Program-made: the position numbers and the translations under genes
IMG/VR virus record: IMGVR_UViG_3300042874_000443
Coordinates: 1-64,000 of that record
DNA length: 64,000 bases
Strand: one strand, 5' to 3'
Source: a virus
Part shown: in pieces, positions 759 through 21,421 of the stretch
Position numbering within the stretch: the first letter of the stretch is position 1
Layout of the letters: the number at the start of each line of letters is the position of its first letter
Notes under the pieces: model-generated
The model's input: only the letters and a program-made list of their open reading frames with translations
Databases searched by the model: none
What the model was told of the DNA's origin: nothing

Positions 759-1037
759 ATGAGGGTCGACCGTGTTGTGATGCACTCGTCGACGAGTGCA
801 ACGGTGTACTTGCAGCCCTCTTGGTGGGAGCGTTTGTTCGGTGCCAAGGTTCTCGTATGTGACATCGAACGGAAACGTGATGTCGACGAGGAGGGCGCGC
901 TCACGGGGCGCAGCAAACACACAGGGGAGAAGTTGGGTTGGATGCATTGGGGCTCGTTGATTCATCGAGCCCTGGAGTTTCAACCCGAGGCGTCTGAAGC
1001 CACGTCGTTGCCGGTGGCGAGGTCGTTGAAGCCATGA
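759..1037 (+). CDS. hypothetical protein
   Basis: 92 residues from an ATG directly after the upstream TGA. It contains a short hydrophobic, Trp-rich segment (QPSWWERLFGAKVLV) and a basic middle. The C-terminus overlaps the start of the first zinc-module gene by four bases (ATGA). No family recognised; the coupling suggests co-translation with its neighbours. Confidence 0.6.
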   Translation: MRVDRVVMHSSTSATVYLQPSWWERLFGAKVLVCDIERKRDVDEEGALTGRSKHTGEKLGWMHWGSLIHRALEFQPEASEATSLPVARSLKP

Positions 1038-1363
1038 CGAAGCTCCTGCCCAAGCGAAACATCTGGGCAGTTCGTGACGATGCTGGCCTCGTGCACACTG
1101 CGTCGGTCACCCGCTTCGTCGACGGGAAAGACAACATCACCGCGTTGCACGTGTCGACGGGTTGTGTGGTTCGCGTCGCTCAGATGCGAAATTCGAATGG
1201 TGAGCCGTGGACACGTTTTCAGTTGCCCAGGGTACTCATCTACGCAGCATCTGAGAGCACCAACTACGAAGATGTCGCCGTTCCTCGCTTCACGATCGTC
1301 GAGTGGGATGTTCGCGCGACGCCGACGTGCTTCGGCTGCGTGATGGCGGAGCCGTTGTCATGA
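1034..1363 (+). CDS. HCCC zinc-module protein 1
   Basis: 109 residues; first of fifteen neighbouring proteins sharing what I call the HCCC module: a His after Gly-hydrophobic-hydrophobic, an isolated Cys, and a terminal [TN]-C-x-x-C. Here the residues are GLVH (H21), C44 and TCFGC (C99, C102). One His and three Cys in this order is the ligand set of a single structural zinc. The spacing between the first Cys and the CxxC is longer here (54 residues) than in most siblings, with an insert around residues 50-95. No catalytic motif is present. Binding of zinc and any nucleic-acid or protein partner is inference. Confidence 0.8.
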   Translation: MTKLLPKRNIWAVRDDAGLVHTASVTRFVDGKDNITALHVSTGCVVRVAQMRNSNGEPWTRFQLPRVLIYAASESTNYEDVAVPRFTIVEWDVRATPTCFGCVMAEPLS

Positions 1364-1845
1364 CGCAGCGCGTGTACGTCATCTATTACGAGCATCGGCA
1401 CGGAACGGACGTTTCGGCGTACGCAACACAACAGGCCGCAAACCGCGCACGCGCTGACCTCGTGATGGACAACCTCGTCAACGAAGTCACCGACGAGAAC
1501 ATCATCACCATCATCAAGCAGTGCTACATCGAGGGCGAGTTTGACCGTTGCTACGATCTCTACAAGGAGTGCGTGGAAGACGAGAACATTACCATCGAGG
1601 AGTGCCGGCTCAATGATGCTTCCGTCGAAGGACGGTTCGTCGTCGTTGATGTTGACAGCGAGCTTGCGCACGTGGTGGCTCTATGGCCATATGCAGGCGA
1701 ACATGGTCTCACGCTCTGCCAGAAACACTTCTGTTGGTGGCGGGAGGGGATGGAGCGCTTCGGCATTTGCCCGGCGTACCTACCACATGACGTCCGCACC
1801 GTGACGTGTCTGGAGTGCATCGCCGGTGAACAAGCGCCAACGTAA
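1360..1845 (+). CDS. HCCC zinc-module protein 2, with N-terminal helical domain
   Basis: 161 residues; ATG overlaps the previous stop. Residues 1-90 form a separate domain, probably mostly helical (AANRARADLVMDNLVNEV, then an acidic stretch with Cys). The HCCC module is at the C-terminus: LAHVV (H104), LTLC (C120) and TCLEC (C150, C153). Two more Cys at 125 and 137 could offer alternative ligands. It is one of the few members in which the module is fused to something larger, so the module probably acts as an add-on. Confidence 0.8.
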   Translation: MTQRVYVIYYEHRHGTDVSAYATQQAANRARADLVMDNLVNEVTDENIITIIKQCYIEGEFDRCYDLYKECVEDENITIEECRLNDASVEGRFVVVDVDSELAHVVALWPYAGEHGLTLCQKHFCWWREGMERFGICPAYLPHDVRTVTCLECIAGEQAPT

Positions 1846-2254
1846 GAAGCGGCTCAAGAAGATCACGAACTACATGTCCGGGTTCCTCCGGGACGCGCTG
1901 AAGCACAAGATCGGTGAACAGTTGAACGCCGCGCGAATGCTCGAAGTTCAGACCATCATCGGCGACACCATCAAGGCGAAGCTCGCGCAGCCGTCGTTCG
2001 TTCATCAGATCTTGGAACCTATGCCGACGTACACGGCGCCCTTTCGTATGTGGCGCGAGCTTGGCGCAGGTCAGCTCACCCATCACGTAGGTGTGTACCC
2101 GTACATCCGTGGCGATGGTTCCACCATCTGGAAGCGCCTCTGTGATGATGCGACCGTCGACGAAACCTTCATCTTGTCCAACGACGAAGCGGTCAACTGC
2201 TTCGGATGTCTCGCCAAGGAGGACATCATCTATGCCTCCAAGACTGATCTCTGA
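1826..2254 (+). CDS. HCCC zinc-module protein 3, basic N-terminus
   Basis: 142 residues from GTG 1826, overlapping the previous gene by 20 bases. The N-terminus is very basic (NKRQRKKRLKK), which could contact nucleic acid, followed by a helical stretch to about residue 80. The C-terminal module has H86/H87, C106 in KRLCDD, and NCFGC (C125, C128). The usual Thr before the first Cys of the CxxC is Asn, as in member 10. Confidence 0.78.
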   Translation: MNKRQRKKRLKKITNYMSGFLRDALKHKIGEQLNAARMLEVQTIIGDTIKAKLAQPSFVHQILEPMPTYTAPFRMWRELGAGQLTHHVGVYPYIRGDGSTIWKRLCDDATVDETFILSNDEAVNCFGCLAKEDIIYASKTDL

Positions 2255-2447
2255 TCGCTTCCTCGACCGGCGCACGGGCATCGTGCACCTCGGCGAGAAG
2301 AACGAACGCGACATGCGTTCGGAATGGCCGTGGTTCAAGTGCGGCCTGATGACGGGCTTCACCGAAGCGACCGAGCTACCGCTCACGTGTATGGGTTGTG
2401 CGGCCGACGTGTCGATGCACGACTGGATGAAGGGTCCCCACGAGTGA
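2232..2447 (+). CDS. HCCC zinc-module protein 4
   Basis: 71 residues; ATG at 2232 lies 23 bases inside the previous gene. Nearly the whole protein is the module: GIVH (H19), FKCG (C37), TCMGC (C53, C56), with a short tail. It shows the minimal size of a free-standing module in this array. Confidence 0.75.
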   Translation: MPPRLISDRFLDRRTGIVHLGEKNERDMRSEWPWFKCGLMTGFTEATELPLTCMGCAADVSMHDWMKGPHE

Positions 2448-2647
2448 GTGAACAACACGTCGACTGGGCCGAGGTCAAGCTAGCCCGATACGGATATGTC
2501 ACTGGACACGATGGGTTACTCCATCGCGCCAAGCATGACGGTACCACTGCATGTGGTATGGGCCGGTCCCAGAATCCGACGTATCACGACGCGGGCCCTG
2601 CCACATGTCTCCGTTGCCTGGCAAGCAGACCGTGGGGTGATTTCTAG
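2444..2647 (+). CDS. HCCC zinc-module protein 5
   Basis: 67 residues starting at GTG 2444 (GTGA overlap with the preceding stop). Module residues are GLLH (H27), TACG (C37) and TCLRC (C55, C58). The H-to-C spacing of ten is the shortest in the array. The part from H27 onward resembles the small H..CG..TCxRCL zinc proteins I recall from phages of GC-rich hosts. Confidence 0.75.
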   Translation: MSEQHVDWAEVKLARYGYVTGHDGLLHRAKHDGTTACGMGRSQNPTYHDAGPATCLRCLASRPWGDF

Positions 2648-2674
2648 GGCTCTGTTTATCGTATCAACGTAGCC

Positions 2675-2690
2675 CTTGACGGAGGTCAAG
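2675..2690 (+). promoter_or_regulatory. hairpin presenting the GGAG ribosome binding site in its loop
   Basis: CTTGAC (2675-2680) pairs perfectly with GTCAAG (2685-2690), leaving GGAG as the loop; GGAGG is the only good Shine-Dalgarno before the following HTH gene. Such an arrangement can be bound by a protein or antisense RNA to block translation. It is five bases from ATG 2695 but 20 from ATG 2711. Confidence 0.5.
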
Positions 2691-2710
2691 CACTATGACA
2701 AAAAAAGCGC

Positions 2711-2968
2711 ATGTCCAAGAACAACGGAAAGACTGCGAAGGCTCCGTACCCGTACGAGTCGTTCGTGAAGAACTGGCAGAAGAGCGCGAACATCGCGGAG
2801 GTCGTCGCTGCAACGGGCCTGTCGCGCAACACGGTGTCGGCGATGTCGACCCGCCTCCGCAAGGAGGGCGTCAAGCTCAAGATGATGCCGCGTCGTACAG
2901 CACGTCCGATCGACGTGAACGTGCTGAACAAGATCGCGAAGGACGCGGCTCCGTCGAAGAGCGCGTAG
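2711..2968 (+). CDS. small helix-turn-helix DNA-binding protein
   Basis: 85 residues with a helix-turn-helix around residues 24-52: NIAEVVAATGLSRNTVSAMSTRLRK, where EVVAATG is helix 2, LS the turn and the Ser/Thr-rich stretch the recognition helix. Basic tails flank it. This small type, with a Trp before the HTH and RLRKEGVKLK after it, is common in phages and likely a regulator of phage or host promoters. The start is uncertain: ATG 2711 has no nearby Shine-Dalgarno. The ATG at 2695 does, but it is out of frame because of an A7 run. Confidence 0.8.
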   Translation: MSKNNGKTAKAPYPYESFVKNWQKSANIAEVVAATGLSRNTVSAMSTRLRKEGVKLKMMPRRTARPIDVNVLNKIAKDAAPSKSA

Positions 2969-2991
2969 AGCGCCTAGGGCACGTCAGCTAC

Positions 2992-3180
2992 GTGGGCGAC
3001 CACGTGTGCTTCGTACGAGATGAAGGCGGGGTCGTTCACATCGAACGGCCCCGTCATCATTTGCCCATCTGCCACGAGAACCGGCTCACCACAGGCTGGG
3101 ACGTCGTGTATCCCTGGCGCGACGCGTTCCCCACGTGCATGGAGTGCATCGTGATGGCGCCGGAGTACTACAACCTGTGA
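2992..3180 (+). CDS. HCCC zinc-module protein 6
   Basis: 62 residues if GTG 2992 is the start; the frame is open further upstream but only in the shadow of the HTH gene. Module: GVVH (H16), LPICH (C27) and TCMEC (C49, C52). It ends in a short aromatic tail (PEYYNL) whose TGA overlaps the next GTG. The start is the weak point. Confidence 0.7.
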   Translation: MGDHVCFVRDEGGVVHIERPRHHLPICHENRLTTGWDVVYPWRDAFPTCMECIVMAPEYYNL

Positions 3181-3359
3181 TCGTCGACTTCGACACCTAC
3201 CGTGTTGACGCGCGCGGGCTGGTTCACGGCGCGCATTACGGCAAAGGCTTCGACAGCAACATCTACCTGTGGTGCGGCCTCGAAGGCGGCAACGAGATGG
3301 ACCCCGCAGACGAGGACATGCTCACATGTTTGCTGTGCATCGGAAAGCGAGGTGAGTGA
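3177..3359 (+). CDS. HCCC zinc-module protein 7
   Basis: 60 residues from GTG 3177 (GTGA overlap). This is the most compact member: GLVH (H17), WCG (C33), TCLLC (C51, C54), and only five residues after it. The 16/18/3 residue spacing can serve as the reference for the family. Acidic overall. Confidence 0.75.
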   Translation: MIVDFDTYRVDARGLVHGAHYGKGFDSNIYLWCGLEGGNEMDPADEDMLTCLLCIGKRGE

Positions 3360-3928
3360 TGGGTGACATTGTTTGCTGTCCGCTTCAAGGCAACGACGGC
3401 GAGGGTCCCTCGTGCCACGCGCAGACGGTTCGCACTGCCCGTAAGGAGCACGTGTGCAGTGAGTGCGGTGAGACCATCACCAAAGGCACGAAGTACGATT
3501 ACTCGAGCGGTATCTGGGACGGTCGTGCCGAGTCGTACAAGACGTGCCTCCTGTGCGTCGAGATTCGCGATCACTTTGCGTGTGAGGGCTGGATCTACGA
3601 ACAGCTCTGGGGCGACCTGCAGGAGAACTTCTTCCCGGATATGAAGTGCGGCGGCCAATGCATGACCGGGCTGTCCCCCGATGCGAAGAGAAAGCTGATC
3701 GACGCTCGGATGGAATGGTATTTCGATCAGGACGAGATCAACGACGATGCGTGGGAGGACTGGCCCAAGAACAAGGACGTTCAACGCCCACGTTACGAGA
3801 AGCCTGTCGTCGAGGAGAAGGACGACTACTACAGCCTGCCCGAGGTCTACTGGCCGGAGCGCCTGAAGCAGGAAGAGATGATGCGGAAGTACTACGAGGA
3901 AGAGGAGAAGAAGAACAATGGCCGTTGA
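3359..3928 (+). CDS. phage zinc-ribbon protein with acidic C-terminus
   Basis: 189 residues; ATG 3359 overlaps the preceding TGA. A zinc ribbon spans about residues 31-65: CSECGETITKGTKYDY, then WDGRAESYKTCLLC. This C-x2-C...C-x2-C pattern with G-x-K/R-Y between is a widespread small phage domain of unknown role. The second half (residues 110-189) is highly acidic and Tyr-rich with EEEEKKN at the end, probably helical or disordered. It is a different zinc fold from the HCCC module around it, although its KTCLLC resembles the module's last motif. Confidence 0.75.
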   Translation: MGDIVCCPLQGNDGEGPSCHAQTVRTARKEHVCSECGETITKGTKYDYSSGIWDGRAESYKTCLLCVEIRDHFACEGWIYEQLWGDLQENFFPDMKCGGQCMTGLSPDAKRKLIDARMEWYFDQDEINDDAWEDWPKNKDVQRPRYEKPVVEEKDDYYSLPEVYWPERLKQEEMMRKYYEEEEKKNNGR

Positions 3929-4196
3929 TCCAAACCATCAAGTCGTCGCCGTGCGTCCTGAGTACTGCAACGGCGCAGGTCCCGCACGCAAGCACACCGT
4001 GTTCGTGCGGCTCGGTGATGGCAGCGACGTGACGGCGGAAGACCTCATCGCGCTCATTGAGGCGGGCGCGGCCTACCACATGATTCCGCCCGAGGGCGCA
4101 CCGGCTTACGAGGCGCACCTTGCGTCTGGCGGACTCCCTCTTATCTTGCAGGTACGCGTGTGCGACCTGTGCTTCAAGAAGGTTCTGTTCGCATGA
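3918..4196 (+). CDS. hypothetical protein, possibly DUF3892-like, with C-terminal CxxC
   Basis: 92 residues. The middle (VFVRLGDGSDVTAEDLIALIEAG) reads like small proteins in which a strand pair is followed by a helix beginning T-x-E-x-[LV]-I; DUF3892 is one such family, but the match is tentative. It ends with VCDLCFKK, a lone CxxC. The gene overlaps both neighbours. Confidence 0.6.
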   Translation: MAVDPNHQVVAVRPEYCNGAGPARKHTVFVRLGDGSDVTAEDLIALIEAGAAYHMIPPEGAPAYEAHLASGGLPLILQVRVCDLCFKKVLFA

Positions 4197-4465
4197 AGAG
4201 CGTCGACTACGTCTTCGACCCGCCGCTGTTCCTCATCATCCTGGGTTCAGCTCTCACGTATCTCTGCATCGGCGGGTTCACGTGGGGACTGACACCAGAA
4301 CGCTGGAACAACCCCTACAACTTCCCGGCGAAGCACGTCACCAGCATTTTCTGGCCGGCGACGCTCGCGGGCTACATCATCTATCGCATCGCGACGTTCG
4401 GTCCTCGTCTCATCAAGACGCTGCGTGAACGCAACAAGATCCCTCGAGCGGAGATCCACCAATGA
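4193..4465 (+). CDS. small membrane protein with two transmembrane helices
   Basis: 90 residues. Two hydrophobic segments are visible: about residues 8-31 (PPLFLIILGSALTYLCIGGF) and 52-70 (IFWPATLAGYIIYRIATF). The C-terminus is basic (RERNKIPRAE), suggesting it faces the cytoplasm. No holin or transporter signature. It is followed by two more genes with an N-terminal membrane segment, so three envelope proteins are encoded in a row. Confidence 0.7.
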   Translation: MKSVDYVFDPPLFLIILGSALTYLCIGGFTWGLTPERWNNPYNFPAKHVTSIFWPATLAGYIIYRIATFGPRLIKTLRERNKIPRAEIHQ

Positions 4466-4809
4466 GCGATGACGTCGACGAGTACATCAAGAAGAACCGC
4501 CGACGCAACGCTCGTTGGAAGACGGTCGGCTCTGTCGCTTCCACGACGGGCATTCTCCTCTGCGTCGCCGCGTTCCTCTTCGTGCAGTGCAACGGTTGCA
4601 AGGTCGGCGACGACCGCGCGATCGAAGCCGTCGAAGCCGCGGGCATGAAGAACGTCAAGCTCGGCGGCATGGACGCGTGGGCGTGTGGTGAGAGCGAGGG
4701 CTCGCGTCACTTCACCGCAACGAACCCACTTGGTGCCCAGGTCGAGGGCACGGTGTGTTGCGGCCTTACCGGCTGCGGTAAGGGCTGCACGATCCGCTGG
4801 GGTCGATGA
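4462..4809 (+). CDS. membrane-anchored Cys-rich phage protein
   Basis: 115 residues. A basic N-terminus (residues 8-20) is followed by a single transmembrane helix at about 22-44. The rest, likely outside the cytoplasm, carries Cys residues in ACGESEG, TVCCG and GCGKGCTIRW. The C-terminal half (ATNP, then GTVCCG, then a Cys before TIRW) matches a small protein I recall from many phages, often with KGCTIRF at the end; function unknown. ATGA overlaps on both sides. Confidence 0.7.
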   Translation: MSDDVDEYIKKNRRRNARWKTVGSVASTTGILLCVAAFLFVQCNGCKVGDDRAIEAVEAAGMKNVKLGGMDAWACGESEGSRHFTATNPLGAQVEGTVCCGLTGCGKGCTIRWGR

Positions 4810-5336
4810 CCTGGTGGCTCGTACCTGCGGGCCTCCTCGCGGGCGGATTCCTCTGGTTGTTGTTGCGGCGGATGCTCTTCGAAGACGACATCGCGACGAA
4901 GCACGTCAAGGAAGCGCATGCCCGCGCAGCGTTCTCGATCACCTGTGCCGAGCGAGAGATTCTCGAGGAGGATCTCAAGCGACAGCCCTATCCGCCGCCC
5001 CCGATGAAACCCGGCGAGTCGCCGTGGGATTGGACGCGCCGAGCCGCGGACGCGGGCTACATCAAGCTCAAGCCCTGGGAGCCGCCGTGGGGGTACCTTC
5101 GTATGCGTGAAGAAACTAAGAACGGCGTCGACATCACAATCAGCGTCAAGCTCTGGACCACGAACATCGAAGGCGTCCTCCATCGCGTGGGGCGTCTCCC
5201 TGTCGTGAGTGGTTCGTCGACGCCGGTGCTGCTCTGCGATACAACCACACGCGTGACGACACCGATCGTCGAGTACGATCGGGAGCGTTGCCCTCTCATC
5301 ACGTGCCTTCGTTGCATCGTGAACATAAAGGACTAG
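4806..5336 (+). CDS. HCCC zinc-module protein 8, membrane-anchored
   Basis: 176 residues with an N-terminal transmembrane helix at about 3-22 (WWLVPAGLLAGGFLWLLL) and a Pro-rich spacer (YPPPPMKP). The module is at the C-terminus: GVLH (H126), VLLCD (C144) and TCLRC (C167, C170), with an extra Cys at 162. The basic residues after the helix suggest the module faces the cytoplasm. It is the only member with a clear membrane anchor, so at least one module would act at the membrane. Confidence 0.78.
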   Translation: MTWWLVPAGLLAGGFLWLLLRRMLFEDDIATKHVKEAHARAAFSITCAEREILEEDLKRQPYPPPPMKPGESPWDWTRRAADAGYIKLKPWEPPWGYLRMREETKNGVDITISVKLWTTNIEGVLHRVGRLPVVSGSSTPVLLCDTTTRVTTPIVEYDRERCPLITCLRCIVNIKD

Positions 5337-5630
5337 ATGACCGACGAGCAGAAAGGCGTCCAAGCGTGCATCGACATCGTCAAGCGACGTCAGCAGTACT
5401 ACGAAAGCTACCGCTGCAACTGCAATCGTATCGCCCAGCTCGATGGTCATGCCGTCGGTTGTCGCGCTGAGATGATGGAGACGAAGCCTGCGACGTTCGC
5501 CACGCTCGACGACATCCTCGTTCATCTCGAGGCGCACCTTGGGCGACTGCAGAATCCTGCGCCACCGCCACGCACGTCGGCGTGCGGCTGCATCAACGGC
5601 TGCAAGGCTTGGGACTGCCAGAACCTGTGA
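5337..5630 (+). CDS. Cys-rich hypothetical protein
   Basis: 97 residues starting directly after the upstream stop. The Cys residues lie in two groups, YRCNCNRI near residue 27 and ACGCINGCKAWDC at the end, with a helical middle (TLDDILVHLEAHLGRL). Two CxC pairs suggest metal binding, but the HCCC order is absent. No family recognised. Confidence 0.6.
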   Translation: MTDEQKGVQACIDIVKRRQQYYESYRCNCNRIAQLDGHAVGCRAEMMETKPATFATLDDILVHLEAHLGRLQNPAPPPRTSACGCINGCKAWDCQNL

Positions 5631-5818
5631 ATTCGTCGCCTCGACGTGGTGACTGGACCGTCGTTGACGGCGCCGGCGTCGTTCACATCGTGAACTTTCC
5701 TGGACGCAGCGCCATGGCGTACAAGACTTGGTGCGGTCGTTCCTTCGGGAGCGACGAGATCCAGGCCGGCACTCGCATTCCTACGTGTCTCGAATGCATC
5801 TCCTGGGAGAACCGATGA
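5627..5818 (+). CDS. HCCC zinc-module protein 9
   Basis: 63 residues from GTG 5627 (GTGA overlap). Minimal module: GVVH (H20), TWCG (C36), TCLEC (C54, C57). Spacing is almost the same as in member 7, and the ends are only a few residues long. Confidence 0.75.
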   Translation: MNSSPRRGDWTVVDGAGVVHIVNFPGRSAMAYKTWCGRSFGSDEIQAGTRIPTCLECISWENR

Positions 5819-6066
5819 GCGCAATCGAAGACAAGGCTGCCCAGTGGCAGCCACCACTTCTCCTGCCCTCCGCCTTCCGGTGGAGGGATATCGCCACGCA
5901 GCTCGTACATCACGGCGCCGTGGTTCAACGCAGTGACGGGCGTGTGCTGGGCTACACCATCCTCTGTACCGAAACACTCGGCTTCCAGTGGAAGGAGCCT
6001 CCCCCCGATGAGGACGCGATGATCAACTGCCTTCAGTGCTTGGGTGCACGGGAGCAAGACGAATGA
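5815..6066 (+). CDS. HCCC zinc-module protein 10
   Basis: 83 residues. A Pro-rich N-terminal extension (residues 10-19) precedes QLVHH (H32/H33), TILC (C51) and NCLQC (C72, C75). The Thr before the CxxC is Asn here, as in member 3. ATGA overlaps connect it to both neighbours. Confidence 0.72.
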   Translation: MSAIEDKAAQWQPPLLLPSAFRWRDIATQLVHHGAVVQRSDGRVLGYTILCTETLGFQWKEPPPDEDAMINCLQCLGAREQDE

Positions 6067-6593
6067 CTCGTCCCCTTGGACGTGATCGTTGGAGCTTCTT
6101 GCACAATGCTGACCATGGTGACCAGCTCATTCACAGTGTGCTTGCGATGTACGACCCAACGTACAAGCAGCGTGGCGAGATGATCGTGCCTGTTCTTGGC
6201 ATCACTGAGTGTGGCATCTACGTCAAGCTTTTGAATGACACCACAGCGGTTGCTGAGCAGGGCGTCTACCTGGACGACAAACACACGGTGACGTGTATGC
6301 GTTGTGCGTCTGGCGTCTGCCACGACGGTATCAGCTTTCGGCAGGCTCAGAAGGAAGCGTTGTTCGGCGAACGCTACGGGCGCAAGTCGTACAATCATCC
6401 TGTGCAATCGAGTGCCGCAATGATACGCGGACACCAAGCTCATCGTACGTTGATCGACGAGGTTCAGAACATCGACTACGCCACGCTCGAGAAGCAGTGC
6501 GCGGAAGTCTACAAGAGGCTCATGGAATCGTACAAGATCCCATCAGAGTGGTGGATGGCTGCAGCGCTGGCCAAGCTGCCCGACCCGGTATGA
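6063..6593 (+). CDS. HCCC zinc-module protein 11, with C-terminal helical domain
   Basis: 176 residues. Here the module is N-terminal: QLIH (H24), ITECG (C50) and TCMRC (C78, C81), followed at once by another Cys and His (GVCHDG). Residues 95-176 form a helical extension (DEVQNIDYATLEKQCAEVY, then EWWMAAALAK). This domain order, opposite to members 2, 3 and 8, shows that the module is portable. Confidence 0.75.
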   Translation: MTRPLGRDRWSFLHNADHGDQLIHSVLAMYDPTYKQRGEMIVPVLGITECGIYVKLLNDTTAVAEQGVYLDDKHTVTCMRCASGVCHDGISFRQAQKEALFGERYGRKSYNHPVQSSAAMIRGHQAHRTLIDEVQNIDYATLEKQCAEVYKRLMESYKIPSEWWMAAALAKLPDPV

Positions 6594-6838
6594 CGTTGTA
6601 CAGCCGTGAGAACATGTTGTGGCTCTGGCTCGATCCGCTACGAAAACTCAAGCACCATGTCGTCAAGATGGTCTATGGAACGCCGCAAGGCGTTGACGTC
6701 GTTGAGTACGAGACGTACTGCAAGCACGCCGTGACTGTCGACGATGTCAACCCCCAGACCAAGGTGACGGGAGAGCCAACGTGCCTGCGTTGTATCGTTG
6801 CTGTGCCTCTTGATGACGTGTTACCTACCGAGGAGTGA
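6590..6838 (+). CDS. HCCC zinc-module protein 12
   Basis: 82 residues. The His motif is diverged (KLKHHVVK, H22/H23), then YCK (C44) and TCLRC (C65, C68). The tail is acidic (LPTEE). The start at ATG 6590 overlaps the preceding TGA by four bases. Confidence 0.72.
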   Translation: MTLYSRENMLWLWLDPLRKLKHHVVKMVYGTPQGVDVVEYETYCKHAVTVDDVNPQTKVTGEPTCLRCIVAVPLDDVLPTEE

Positions 6839-7047
6839 ACGCATGGAACAACGGCAAGCCCCTTGGCGTGCCCTTCTTCGGCAACAAGGGCAGCGCGCGG
6901 GAATTCGCCAAGAAGGGCGACAAGGCCAAGCGGCTCGCCATGATCAAACGGCGCCATCGCGTTTGGTTGCGTCAGCAGGCGGAGGACACCGTGCCGCTCG
7001 AGGACGAAAGCGCGGGTGGCGGTTCCGACGAGGTGTGGTTCGACTAG
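6835..7047 (+). CDS. basic hypothetical protein
   Basis: 70 residues from GTG 6835. The N-terminal 45 residues are strongly basic (REFAKKGDKAKRLAMIKRRHRVW) and the last 20 acidic, so it may bind nucleic acid. No Cys and no known family. It interrupts the series of zinc-module genes. Confidence 0.6.
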   Translation: MNAWNNGKPLGVPFFGNKGSAREFAKKGDKAKRLAMIKRRHRVWLRQQAEDTVPLEDESAGGGSDEVWFD

Positions 7048-7412
7048 AGCCCGCCGTCGAGGGCGCACACGGGGACCTCAACTACTGGGACGAGGTCTAC
7101 GACGACAGCCTGCATGACGAGGGAGCACACCACGCGGACTGTGAATACTGCGGCACGACGGGCGAATGGTGGGCGCCGACAATGCCGCCTCGTGCGTTTC
7201 TGCAAAACGGACTCGTCCACATGACGACGCTTTGGGATGGAACGCAGGCGTACTGTGGTGCACCCGCGGTGCCTTACGGCGTGACGCTCCACTCGACGGA
7301 CGCCGTGCACGCCTACGCGCGGCAACTTTCAGCGGAGGCGGGCGAGGTCACGTGCTTCGAGTGCATCGTGCGTGACTTTGATCTCGAGCCACGCGGGCGC
7401 TGGCGACGCTAA
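7035..7412 (+). CDS. HCCC zinc-module protein 13, extra CxxC
   Basis: 125 residues if GTG 7035 is used; no later in-frame start precedes the conserved part. An additional N-terminal CEYC pair (C36, C39) precedes the module GLVH (H62), AYCG (C74) and TCFEC (C107, C110), so the protein could hold two zincs. The insert between C74 and C107 is long. The basic tail ends RGRWRR. SD AAGGAGG follows the stop for the next gene. Confidence 0.72.
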   Translation: MVRLEPAVEGAHGDLNYWDEVYDDSLHDEGAHHADCEYCGTTGEWWAPTMPPRAFLQNGLVHMTTLWDGTQAYCGAPAVPYGVTLHSTDAVHAYARQLSAEAGEVTCFECIVRDFDLEPRGRWRR

Positions 7413-7427
7413 CAACAAGGAGGACCG

Positions 7428-7685
7428 ATGGCGGAAGAAGACGACCGCTGGGCTCTCGAGCATCTGAAGGATTGTGACGAACGAGAGAGTTCGTTCGGCG
7501 TCGGCACGTTTCGCTGGAAAGGCGAAGACGGGCTCGTGCACCGTGTGACGTGGTCACGCGGGACGCGTGGATGGTCGCGAGTGTGTGATGGTGTTGCGGT
7601 GGACCGCAAGGCGCTCAATGCGAAGGACCCGCACGACGACCCTGGCGCGGTGACGTGCTTCGCGTGCCTCGGCAATGGCGCCTGA
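7428..7685 (+). CDS. HCCC zinc-module protein 14
   Basis: 85 residues with a strong AAGGAGG site before ATG 7428. Module: GLVH (H38), RVCD (C53), TCFAC (C77, C80). The acidic N-terminal extension of about 30 residues contains one more Cys (C16). Unlike most members it has its own ribosome binding site, marking a translational restart in the run. Confidence 0.75.
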   Translation: MAEEDDRWALEHLKDCDERESSFGVGTFRWKGEDGLVHRVTWSRGTRGWSRVCDGVAVDRKALNAKDPHDDPGAVTCFACLGNGA

Positions 7686-7959
7686 AGCGTACACGCCTGG
7701 TTGGAAGGGTCCTGATGGGCTCGTCCACATCGCAGGCACGCACATTCGTTCGTGCGTGTTCGCCGAGTGCGGCATCGTCATCGCGACGGGTGCCAAGGAC
7801 GGACGGGACTGGCCGGAGTACGAGGTTTCGACCGATGTTCCGACGTGCTTGATGTGCATCGGAAGCGCGGTCGACTACTTGCCGTGGACCGCACATCAAG
7901 AGGTGGGCATCGGTGTCATCAACGTCAACGCGTTGTCGAAGCTCAACCTCAAGCTTTGA
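7675..7959 (+). CDS. HCCC zinc-module protein 15
   Basis: 94 residues, overlapping the previous gene by 11 bases. Module: GLVH (H18), AECG (C32; also C27) and TCLMC (C58, C61). A C-terminal extension of 30 residues (WTAHQEVGIGVINVNALSK) follows. It is the last copy of the array. Confidence 0.75.
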   Translation: MAPEAYTPGWKGPDGLVHIAGTHIRSCVFAECGIVIATGAKDGRDWPEYEVSTDVPTCLMCIGSAVDYLPWTAHQEVGIGVINVNALSKLNLKL

Positions 7960-8168: not shown

Positions 8169-8692
8169 CTCTGGCTGCGCTTCGCTCGTTCTTTTTTGAT
8201 CCAACGAGCGCGGTGCAAGCGGACTTCGGGGATCGTGCAGATGTCGACATCGCGGCTACCGCGCACGCGCATGACAGGACCTTCGGCGCAGGCGTTGATC
8301 AACGTGTAGCCGCCGCCGTAGCCGAGTAGGGCGCAGCGCTCATCGCCTCGGCACGCGCGATACCAGTCCTGCAGGTGCTTGGCACCGATGAGGTAGCCCT
8401 CGAACAACGTCTGCGGCACGCACTTCGTTTCCATGATCGGCTGCATTACGCCGCATGCGGTCTTGCCCCTGACCACTGGGCCCACCACGTCGGTCTTGTA
8501 GCGGCTCTCGAAGAACGCAGTGCTGAGCAGTAGATCGGCATCGACTTCGTAGATGGCTGCCGACACGCGTGCGGCCATCAGGTTCTCCATCGCAGTCTCC
8601 GCGGTCAGGTATCGAGGCGCTGTTCGTTGCAGTGCCTCGGCCTCGTCCGATGTTGTGAACAGCGACAGGAACACCGTGATGATGTACGACAT
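8165..8692 (-). CDS. lytic transglycosylase (SLT-type) domain protein
   Basis: 175 residues from ATG 8692. A short hydrophobic N-terminus (SYIITVFLSLF) could be a signal sequence or signal arrest. The SLT signatures follow: catalytic-type Glu62 in AFFESRY, GVMQPI at 81-86 (the usual GLMQ), and LLGYGGGY near 122-129 (usual AYNGG). This family cleaves the glycan strand of peptidoglycan. With the spanin-like gene upstream on the same strand it suggests a lysis or entry function. TAGGGT lies seven bases before the ATG. Confidence 0.78.
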   Translation of the reverse strand: MSYIITVFLSLFTTSDEAEALQRTAPRYLTAETAMENLMAARVSAAIYEVDADLLLSTAFFESRYKTDVVGPVVRGKTACGVMQPIMETKCVPQTLFEGYLIGAKHLQDWYRACRGDERCALLGYGGGYTLINACAEGPVMRVRGSRDVDICTIPEVRLHRARWIKKERAKRSQS

Positions 8693-21191: not shown

Positions 21192-21268
21192 TGGAGCGTC
21201 GGATGGGACTTGAACCCATGCGCGTTCAGTTCATTAGGCTGACTGCTCTGCCGCTGAGCTACCGACGC
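21192..21268 (-). tRNA. tRNA, anticodon uncertain (AAU if a 7-nt loop is assumed), CCA encoded
   Basis: The minus strand gives a perfect 7-bp acceptor stem (GCGTCGG/CCGACGC), D-arm GCTC...GAGC, T-arm ATGGG-TTCAAGT-CCCAT, discriminator T and an encoded CCA. The anticodon arm is odd. TCAG/CTGA pairs enclose CCTAATGAA, so either the loop has nine bases or there is a C-A mismatch around CTAATGA. The second reading gives anticodon AAU (Ile), rare in bacteria. The tRNA is secure, its specificity is not. Confidence 0.85.
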
Positions 21269-21349
21269 GTTGCGCATACTGTAAGAGTATCGAATTTTAG
21301 TCCGTGAGTCATCACTCCTCTCGGGTTACGGTCATCACAATAAGTACCG

Positions 21350-21421
21350 TGGGGACGGATGGGTTCGAACCACCGACGCAGGCCCTTTCGAGCCATCGCT
21401 CTACCACTGAGCTACGTCCCC
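21350..21421 (-). tRNA. tRNA, anticodon uncertain (GAA or CGA)
   Basis: Minus-strand cloverleaf: acceptor GGGGACG/CGTCCCC, D-arm GCTC-AGTGGTA-GAGC, T-arm GGTGG-TTCGAAC-CCATC, discriminator A. CCA is not encoded. The anticodon arm around GGCTCGAAAGGGCC pairs poorly, with GGC/GCC as the only clean part. By numbering the anticodon is GAA (Phe) with C at position 33, or CGA if shifted by one. Confidence 0.85.

Follow-up and report, generated by a model that had tools for sequence, protein, structure and literature searches.

An array of 15 small genes at 1034-7959 on the plus strand of the window, that is, bases 1-64,000 of the 157,408-base IMG/VR virus record IMGVR_UViG_3300042874_000443, belongs to a new protein family, a multigene family that is unusually large for a phage and works like those of other viruses. 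Each open reading frame (ORF) of the array encodes the same pattern of one histidine and three cysteines (HCCC): a hydrophobic-x-H motif, a Cys, and then [TN]CxxC[ILVA]. By profile comparison the 15 genes are one family, and their common pattern is not the product of chance.

This conclusion was supported by several profile tests. A hidden Markov model (HMM) built from the 15 modules and run on every ORF of the record recovered the 15 together with copies that had not been seen before, at 92.8 kb (best expectation value, E, 1.7e-8), at 141.6 kb, at 145.7 kb and in a second array at 150.8-154.5 kb. Since these unseen copies lie elsewhere in the record, the pattern of the 15 genes is not accidental. 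In leave-one-out models each of the 15 ranked among the top 31 of 3231 ORFs (about 31 being true members), and 13 of them were detected alone at E<0.05. The weakest, the fourth (copy 4, E 1.5) and the last (copy 15, E 0.68), were strongly detected after relatives had been added to the profile. The iterated family profile found no match in 9059 reversed ORFs and none in 12377 ORFs from 641 kb of other viral loci preselected by the DNA pattern of the motif. Register and profile detection place all 15 window ORFs in the HCCC module family. An initial annotation of this DNA had proposed a single family and named a split of the copies into unrelated families by an HMM as evidence against it; the profile and leave-one-out tests agree with a single family, and no such split occurred. 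Of the 148 rows in an alignment from four phages, all have the three Cys and 147 have the His, so the presumed zinc ligands are as invariant as had been claimed, and everything else is indeed very variable. Next in conservation come the T that precedes CxxC, the residues that follow it, and a G and a D on the N-terminal side of the GLVH strand. One family-like ORF without the middle Cys was observed at record 99674-99844, the sole such copy seen in the window's phage.

The 15 ORFs listed by the initial annotation all exist at 1034-7959, and its details were also found to hold: a hydrophobic helix in 4806-5336, an extra CxxC in 7035-7412, and several copies of module size. The array of 15 is real but was understated: the set to which it belongs is larger and extends beyond the window, with these 15 genes at one end. 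Several gene starts had to be moved: with start codons picked by upstream context, six of the 15 (1360, 2444, 3177, 5815, 6063 and 6590) can overlap the stop of the preceding module gene by 4 nucleotides (nt). The array genes are as follows, with orthologs given by position in three related phage contigs, G002, G007 and G003.

Copy 1: 1034..1363, plus strand; 109 residues; module from 1082; orthologs G002:65158 and G007:160017.
Copy 2: 1360..1845, plus strand; 161 residues; N-terminal extra domain; 4-nt overlap with the stop of copy 1; orthologs G002:65301 and G007:159541.
Copy 3: 1826..2254, plus strand; 142 residues; N-terminal extra domain; orthologs G002:66031 and G007:159125.
Copy 4: 2232..2447, plus strand; 71 residues, barely longer than the module; 87% identity to G002:66248.
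Copy 5: 2444..2647, plus strand; 67 residues; 4-nt overlap with copy 4; ortholog G007:158732.
Non-module gene: 2711..2968, plus strand; weak helix-turn-helix match; syntenic in relatives.
Copy 6: 2992..3180, plus strand; about 62 residues; start uncertain (2992 or 3004); ortholog G007:158219.
Copy 7: 3177..3359, plus strand; 60 residues; 4-nt overlap with copy 6; no strong ortholog.
Non-module zinc protein: 3356..3928, plus strand; known phage family phrog_19515; about 80% identical in G007.
Copy 8: 4806..5336, plus strand; 176 residues; N-terminal hydrophobic (probable membrane) helix; module 74% identical to G002:67691.
Non-module gene: 5337..5630, plus strand; 86% identity in G002.
Copy 9: 5627..5818, plus strand; 63 residues; AlphaFold2 model; orthologs G002:68608 (79%) and G007:157301.
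Copy 10: 5815..6066, plus strand; 83 residues; 4-nt overlap at start; ortholog G007:157011.
Copy 11: 6063..6593, plus strand; 176 residues; C-terminal extra domain; 4-nt overlap at start; orthologs in G002, G007 and G003:180875.
Copy 12: 6590..6838, plus strand; 82 residues; 4-nt overlap at start; orthologs G002:69338 and G007:156278.
Non-module gene: 6835..7047, plus strand; found in G002 and G007.
Copy 13: 7035..7412, plus strand; about 125 residues; additional CxxC before the module; start uncertain; no strong ortholog.
Copy 14: 7428..7685, plus strand; 85 residues; ortholog G002:69669.
Copy 15: 7675..7959, plus strand; 94 residues; orthologs G002:70264 and G003:182970.

Across the four genomes together, 131 of 191 copies (69%) can start in a 4-nt overlap with an upstream ORF, and because such starts are common the copies look like members of translationally coupled operons. 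A sigma-70 promoter scan found no promoters. A conserved element of 36-49 nt ahead of the second array was considered and rejected, as it is the coding end (VCDDxDEMPNM) of the upstream gene. The C-terminal peptide itself is unusually conserved (L001:10092-10127, with matching sites in G002, G003, G007-like and G045 contigs).

The record is that of a contractile-tailed myophage, with genes for a tail sheath, baseplate hub, DNA polymerase A, primase, helicase and ribonucleotide reductase. Related contigs were reached through the tail sheath. At E<=0.01 the family profile detects 30 copies in the window's phage, 44 in G002, 37 in G007 and 78 in G003, and the iterated profile, applied to the parts of the records covered, gives 33, 46, 40 and 72, respectively. 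Within each genome every copy is on one strand, and the genes are densely packed. Further carrier contigs were located by the DNA pattern or by a two-module protein described below: G044 (31 matches in 36 kb), G046 (28 in 25 kb), G045 (9) and G047 (6). G044 is 99.9% identical to G007 across the 12.5 kb compared. Copies were absent from 34 phages whose sheath is only 24-50% identical, from Salmonella phage Arash and Vibrio phage D69, and from T4, phiKZ, SPO1, Jay2Jay, phiCbK and Atu_ph07. Since distant relatives and known phages have no copies, the expansion is a trait of a single clade of environmental phages, within the reach of the collections and the profile used. A motif pattern scan of 2.9 million viral contigs gave 23 stretches, and those confirmed by the profile are known clade contigs or G046 and G047, two contigs whose samples also contained members of the clade; low-GC (guanine-cytosine) versions of the motif were only sampled, among the matches listed. 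With tblastn, individual modules matched isolate phages and plasmids at chance level only, and the best of these matches, in a mycobacteriophage, is antisense to an annotated gene. A marginal partial match to one mycobacteriophage (E 0.006) was likewise discarded, because the iterated profile gave it no support. A search for a host in 85,000 prokaryote genomes, with the tail sheath and the ribonucleotide reductase as queries, found no relative.

Sequence is probably missing from the window's record, because both of its ends lie in a region that spans about 29 kb in G002 and has further copies there near 40, 45-48 and 60-62 kb; the 30-33 copies counted are therefore a minimum. The same G002 stretch carries long collagen-like repeats on the minus strand (L017:8850-12568, G002 about 52.7-56.5 kb), a possible cause of the assembly break. 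In G003, about 17 copies of a 126-nt repeat with a 63-nt subunit lie beside the array region (L023:17564-19735).

Comparison among the relatives showed that the copies are individually conserved. Of the 33 copies in the window's phage, 26 have a reciprocal best match in G002 (median identity 54%) and 23 in G007 (52%), whereas the best paralog within the genome has about 35% identity over short stretches and is significant for only 13 of the 33. Global alignment gave 23 strong pairs for G002 (median identity 52%) and 20 for G007, ortholog identity ranging from 34 to 87%. The strong pairs are collinear inside each of two blocks, the order being reversed in G007, whose record has the other orientation, and several non-module genes between the copies are also syntenic. 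Strong orthologs exist in G002 for ten of the window's 15 and in G007 likewise for ten; 13 have one in at least one of these phages, and two (3177 and 7035) have none in either. The proportion of nonsynonymous differences is below that of synonymous ones (pN<pS) in every pair, with a median pN/pS of 0.47 for G002 and 0.42 for G007. This shows purifying selection on the orthologs; with pS near saturation, positive selection at a few sites is possible. Near relatives are 99.9-100% identical over the arrays and other relatives are far more diverged. With G003 there are only two strong pairs. For the majority of its more than 70 copies no partner stands out, so a large share of them is either peculiar to G003 or has diverged too far.

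These comparisons date most of the duplications far back, with every copy since retained as a gene of its own; collinear one-to-one orthologs under purifying selection indicate that each copy has its own job. On the same evidence, individual copies are gained and lost on a conserved backbone. Arrayed and diverged paralogs, conservation copy by copy, and turnover between relatives are what characterises a viral multigene family, and all three were found here. The initial annotation had read the array as repeated duplication under selection for diversity. Recent duplication of this kind is not supported by the one-to-one collinear orthologs, the low pN/pS or the distance between paralogs. DNA repeats in the window, considered as a trace of recent duplication, proved to be mainly the codons of the TCxxC motif. 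Duplication is nevertheless still ongoing, as an exact tandem duplication of 124 nt in G002 (L018:8365-8488 and 8569-8692) yields a truncated copy at 70549. This event could speak for a duplication ratchet, in which tandem copies with little function persist by chance. However, such an explanation is highly unlikely given the collinear orthologs with pN<pS throughout, the absence of near-identical paralogs in the window's phage, and the full set of ligands in 147 of the 148 copies aligned. It is largely refuted for the conserved copies, but may apply to some of the additional ones in G003.

The module has 40-60 residues, in the order strand, strand (GLVH), strand (C), strand, loop, TCxxC and helix. 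An AlphaFold2 model of copy 9, made with the 148-row alignment, is a beta-beta-beta-beta-alpha fold of four strands and a C-terminal helix, with a predicted local distance difference test score (pLDDT) of 79 and a predicted template modelling score (pTM) of 0.68. In this model strand 2 contains His19, Cys35 directly follows strand 3, and Cys53 immediately precedes the helix, whose first turn includes Cys56; this order would fit a one-zinc finger of the treble-clef sort. Members of the family are probably zinc-binding. Loop lengths differ widely, from 3 to 33 residues between His and Cys and from 8 to 35 between Cys and CxxC. Twelve of 180 modules have at least 40 further residues behind them in their ORF, and others have N-terminal regions. 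The conserved residues beyond the ligands are core hydrophobic, glycine and aspartate positions, and none suggests an active site.

These properties led us to lean, tentatively and at somewhat less than even confidence, towards a role as zinc-pinned mini-scaffolds made from coupled operons, each gripping a different partner in host takeover or anti-defence, the target side being our inference. One His and three Cys would hold one zinc ion and so pin a very small scaffold, while the variable loops and the N- and C-terminal additions may give every copy a binding surface of its own. All would be produced jointly, probably early in infection, and each copy may bind and divert its own partner, with host factors or defence proteins the most likely candidates. 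An inhibitor or adaptor role, as suggested by the initial annotation, is possible. We propose that copies come and go among related phages because hosts differ; defence or takeover targets seem likeliest because copies turn over between phages while those retained stay under purifying selection. For the mini-scaffold role we counted the invariant ligands among otherwise variable columns, the predicted compact fold with ligands in or near strands and helix start, the collinear one-to-one orthologs under purifying selection, the turnover of copies on a conserved backbone together with the coupled starts, the location on the strand of the polymerase, primase and helicase genes and opposite to the tail genes, and the lack of any conserved residue resembling an active site. 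Several points weigh on the other side. An arms race would be expected to leave signs of positive selection, and none was seen in the ortholog pairs (with pS near saturation). Zinc binding is inferred from the residues; the partners, time of expression and activity are our suppositions; and no named anti-defence protein is similar in sequence or fold.

The conserved columns also allow a different role, that of adaptors whose common core docks one shared phage or host protein while the variable loop recruits different clients. The D-x-x-G-[LV]-V-H strand and the TC[LV]xC[IL]A helix are kept across the 148 copies, beyond the four ligands, and the module is joined to unrelated extra domains. However, a core of 45 residues needs the same positions merely to fold, and no hub is known, so that we regard this role as unlikely.

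Binding of nucleic acid must also be considered, each copy recognising its own DNA or RNA element in the phage or the host as a regulator of transcription or translation. Small zinc folds often bind nucleic acid, and the weak helix-turn-helix gene (2711..2968) lies inside the array. Moreover, a two-module protein (record 153615-154157 or 153615-154154, L001:13616-14155) is present in the window's phage, G002, G007 and G003, and its modules flank a middle region predicted as helix-helix-wing-helix, a possible winged helix with moderate local confidence only. The model of this protein is poor overall (mean pLDDT 46) and was not used for fold search. The modules have a median net charge of -1, with 14 of 180 at +4 or above and 35 of 180 at -4 or below, and no conserved basic face. 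This disfavours RNA or DNA binding as a general role, including the RNA-binding variants suggested by the initial annotation, and makes such regulators quite unlikely.

The location of the arrays bears on whether the proteins could instead be virion or packaged components, for example ejected with the DNA, and not early intracellular proteins. Large phages package many small proteins, which is a general argument with nothing direct behind it. The arrays share their strand with the polymerase, primase and helicase genes and are opposite to the tail genes, and the ORF of the DNA polymerase overlaps at its end with the copy at 92749-93009; a place in the virion is therefore very unlikely.

Comparison with known families gave no clear relative. 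Small zinc proteins built along similar lines are found elsewhere, and the nearest named ones are DUF3039 (PF11238) and zf-HC3 (PF16827), DUF3039 being the best lead although below its cut-off. Its best score is 18.3 bits (E 3.6e-4, in G007) against a cut-off of 22.7, and none of the four phage records passes. The likeness is a weak local match, in three phages, to the Cys...CxxC part of the first module of the two-module protein; in contrast, only 2 of 148 copies reach E<0.1 and half of the DUF3039 model is left uncovered. The zf-HC3 family resembles ours by name, as a zinc finger of one His and three Cys, and no record of the four exceeded its cut-off of 25 bits (best E 0.013, in 1 of 148 copies). 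A PHROG scan of 148 members gave a best E of 0.017, with no family matched by more than two of them, and an NCBIfam scan of 31 members gave 0.15. Profile searches of the PDB had best E values of 0.24 and 1.3, and Foldseek reached 0.62 in the PDB and 0.093 in a viral library. The phrog_19515 protein in the array (3356-3928) is also small and Cys-rich, is part of the same operon and has a TCLLC motif, but its Cys pattern is different and the family profile does not detect it. According to the initial annotation, a tandem array of this size is not known. In keeping with this, the literature on families of paralogs, arrayed genes and small zinc proteins of phages contained no description of such a phage family or array, or of a paralog set of this size, which is weak evidence as most subscription papers were outside its coverage.

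There are parallels in gene organisation. Large eukaryotic DNA viruses have multigene families (MGFs), such as the African swine fever virus MGFs and the ankyrin and Bcl-2-like families of poxviruses, and several members of these families antagonise host defence. Like the phage family, they consist of arrayed and diverged paralogs that are conserved copy by copy among relatives and gained or lost between isolates. They differ in having eukaryotic hosts and larger, unrelated folds, and our comparison concerns gene organisation. The T4 homing endonucleases are a repeated gene family in a phage, mobile and spread by homing. They too are many related genes in one phage genome; unlike them, the module genes are very small, stand in arrays, keep their order from phage to phage and show no sign of mobility. 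A broader view, possible although doubtful, is that the clade holds a modular repertoire, up to about 78 per genome, of zinc-pinned mini-binders, one minimal scaffold having been adapted in each copy to neutralise or redirect many different host proteins or defence systems, as a counterpart of the immune-evasion families of large animal viruses.

Other genes of the record deserve mention. The DNA polymerase A whose 3' end is overlapped by a module ORF (L003:7305-10301, record 89804-92800) has an N-terminal uracil-glycosylase-like domain. The ribonucleotide reductase (L004:1612-4872, record 103111-106371) has a LAGLIDADG insertion, probably an intein. Two transfer RNA genes are present on the minus strand of the window (21192-21268 and 21349-21421), of which one has the anticodon AAT (Ile) and the other a two-base anticodon that cannot be assigned.

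To our knowledge, no other phage has a multigene family of this size, with 30 to 78 copies of one tiny protein. The module is a new family for annotation libraries. Even without a function, the presence of 30-78 copies in one clade and of none in the outsiders tested raises the question of how and why one fold was amplified. If the copies bind different targets, each genome would hold tens of natural host-directed mini-proteins built on one scaffold of 40-60 residues and open to side-by-side comparison, and phages, like large eukaryotic viruses, would be able to rely on a large multigene family.

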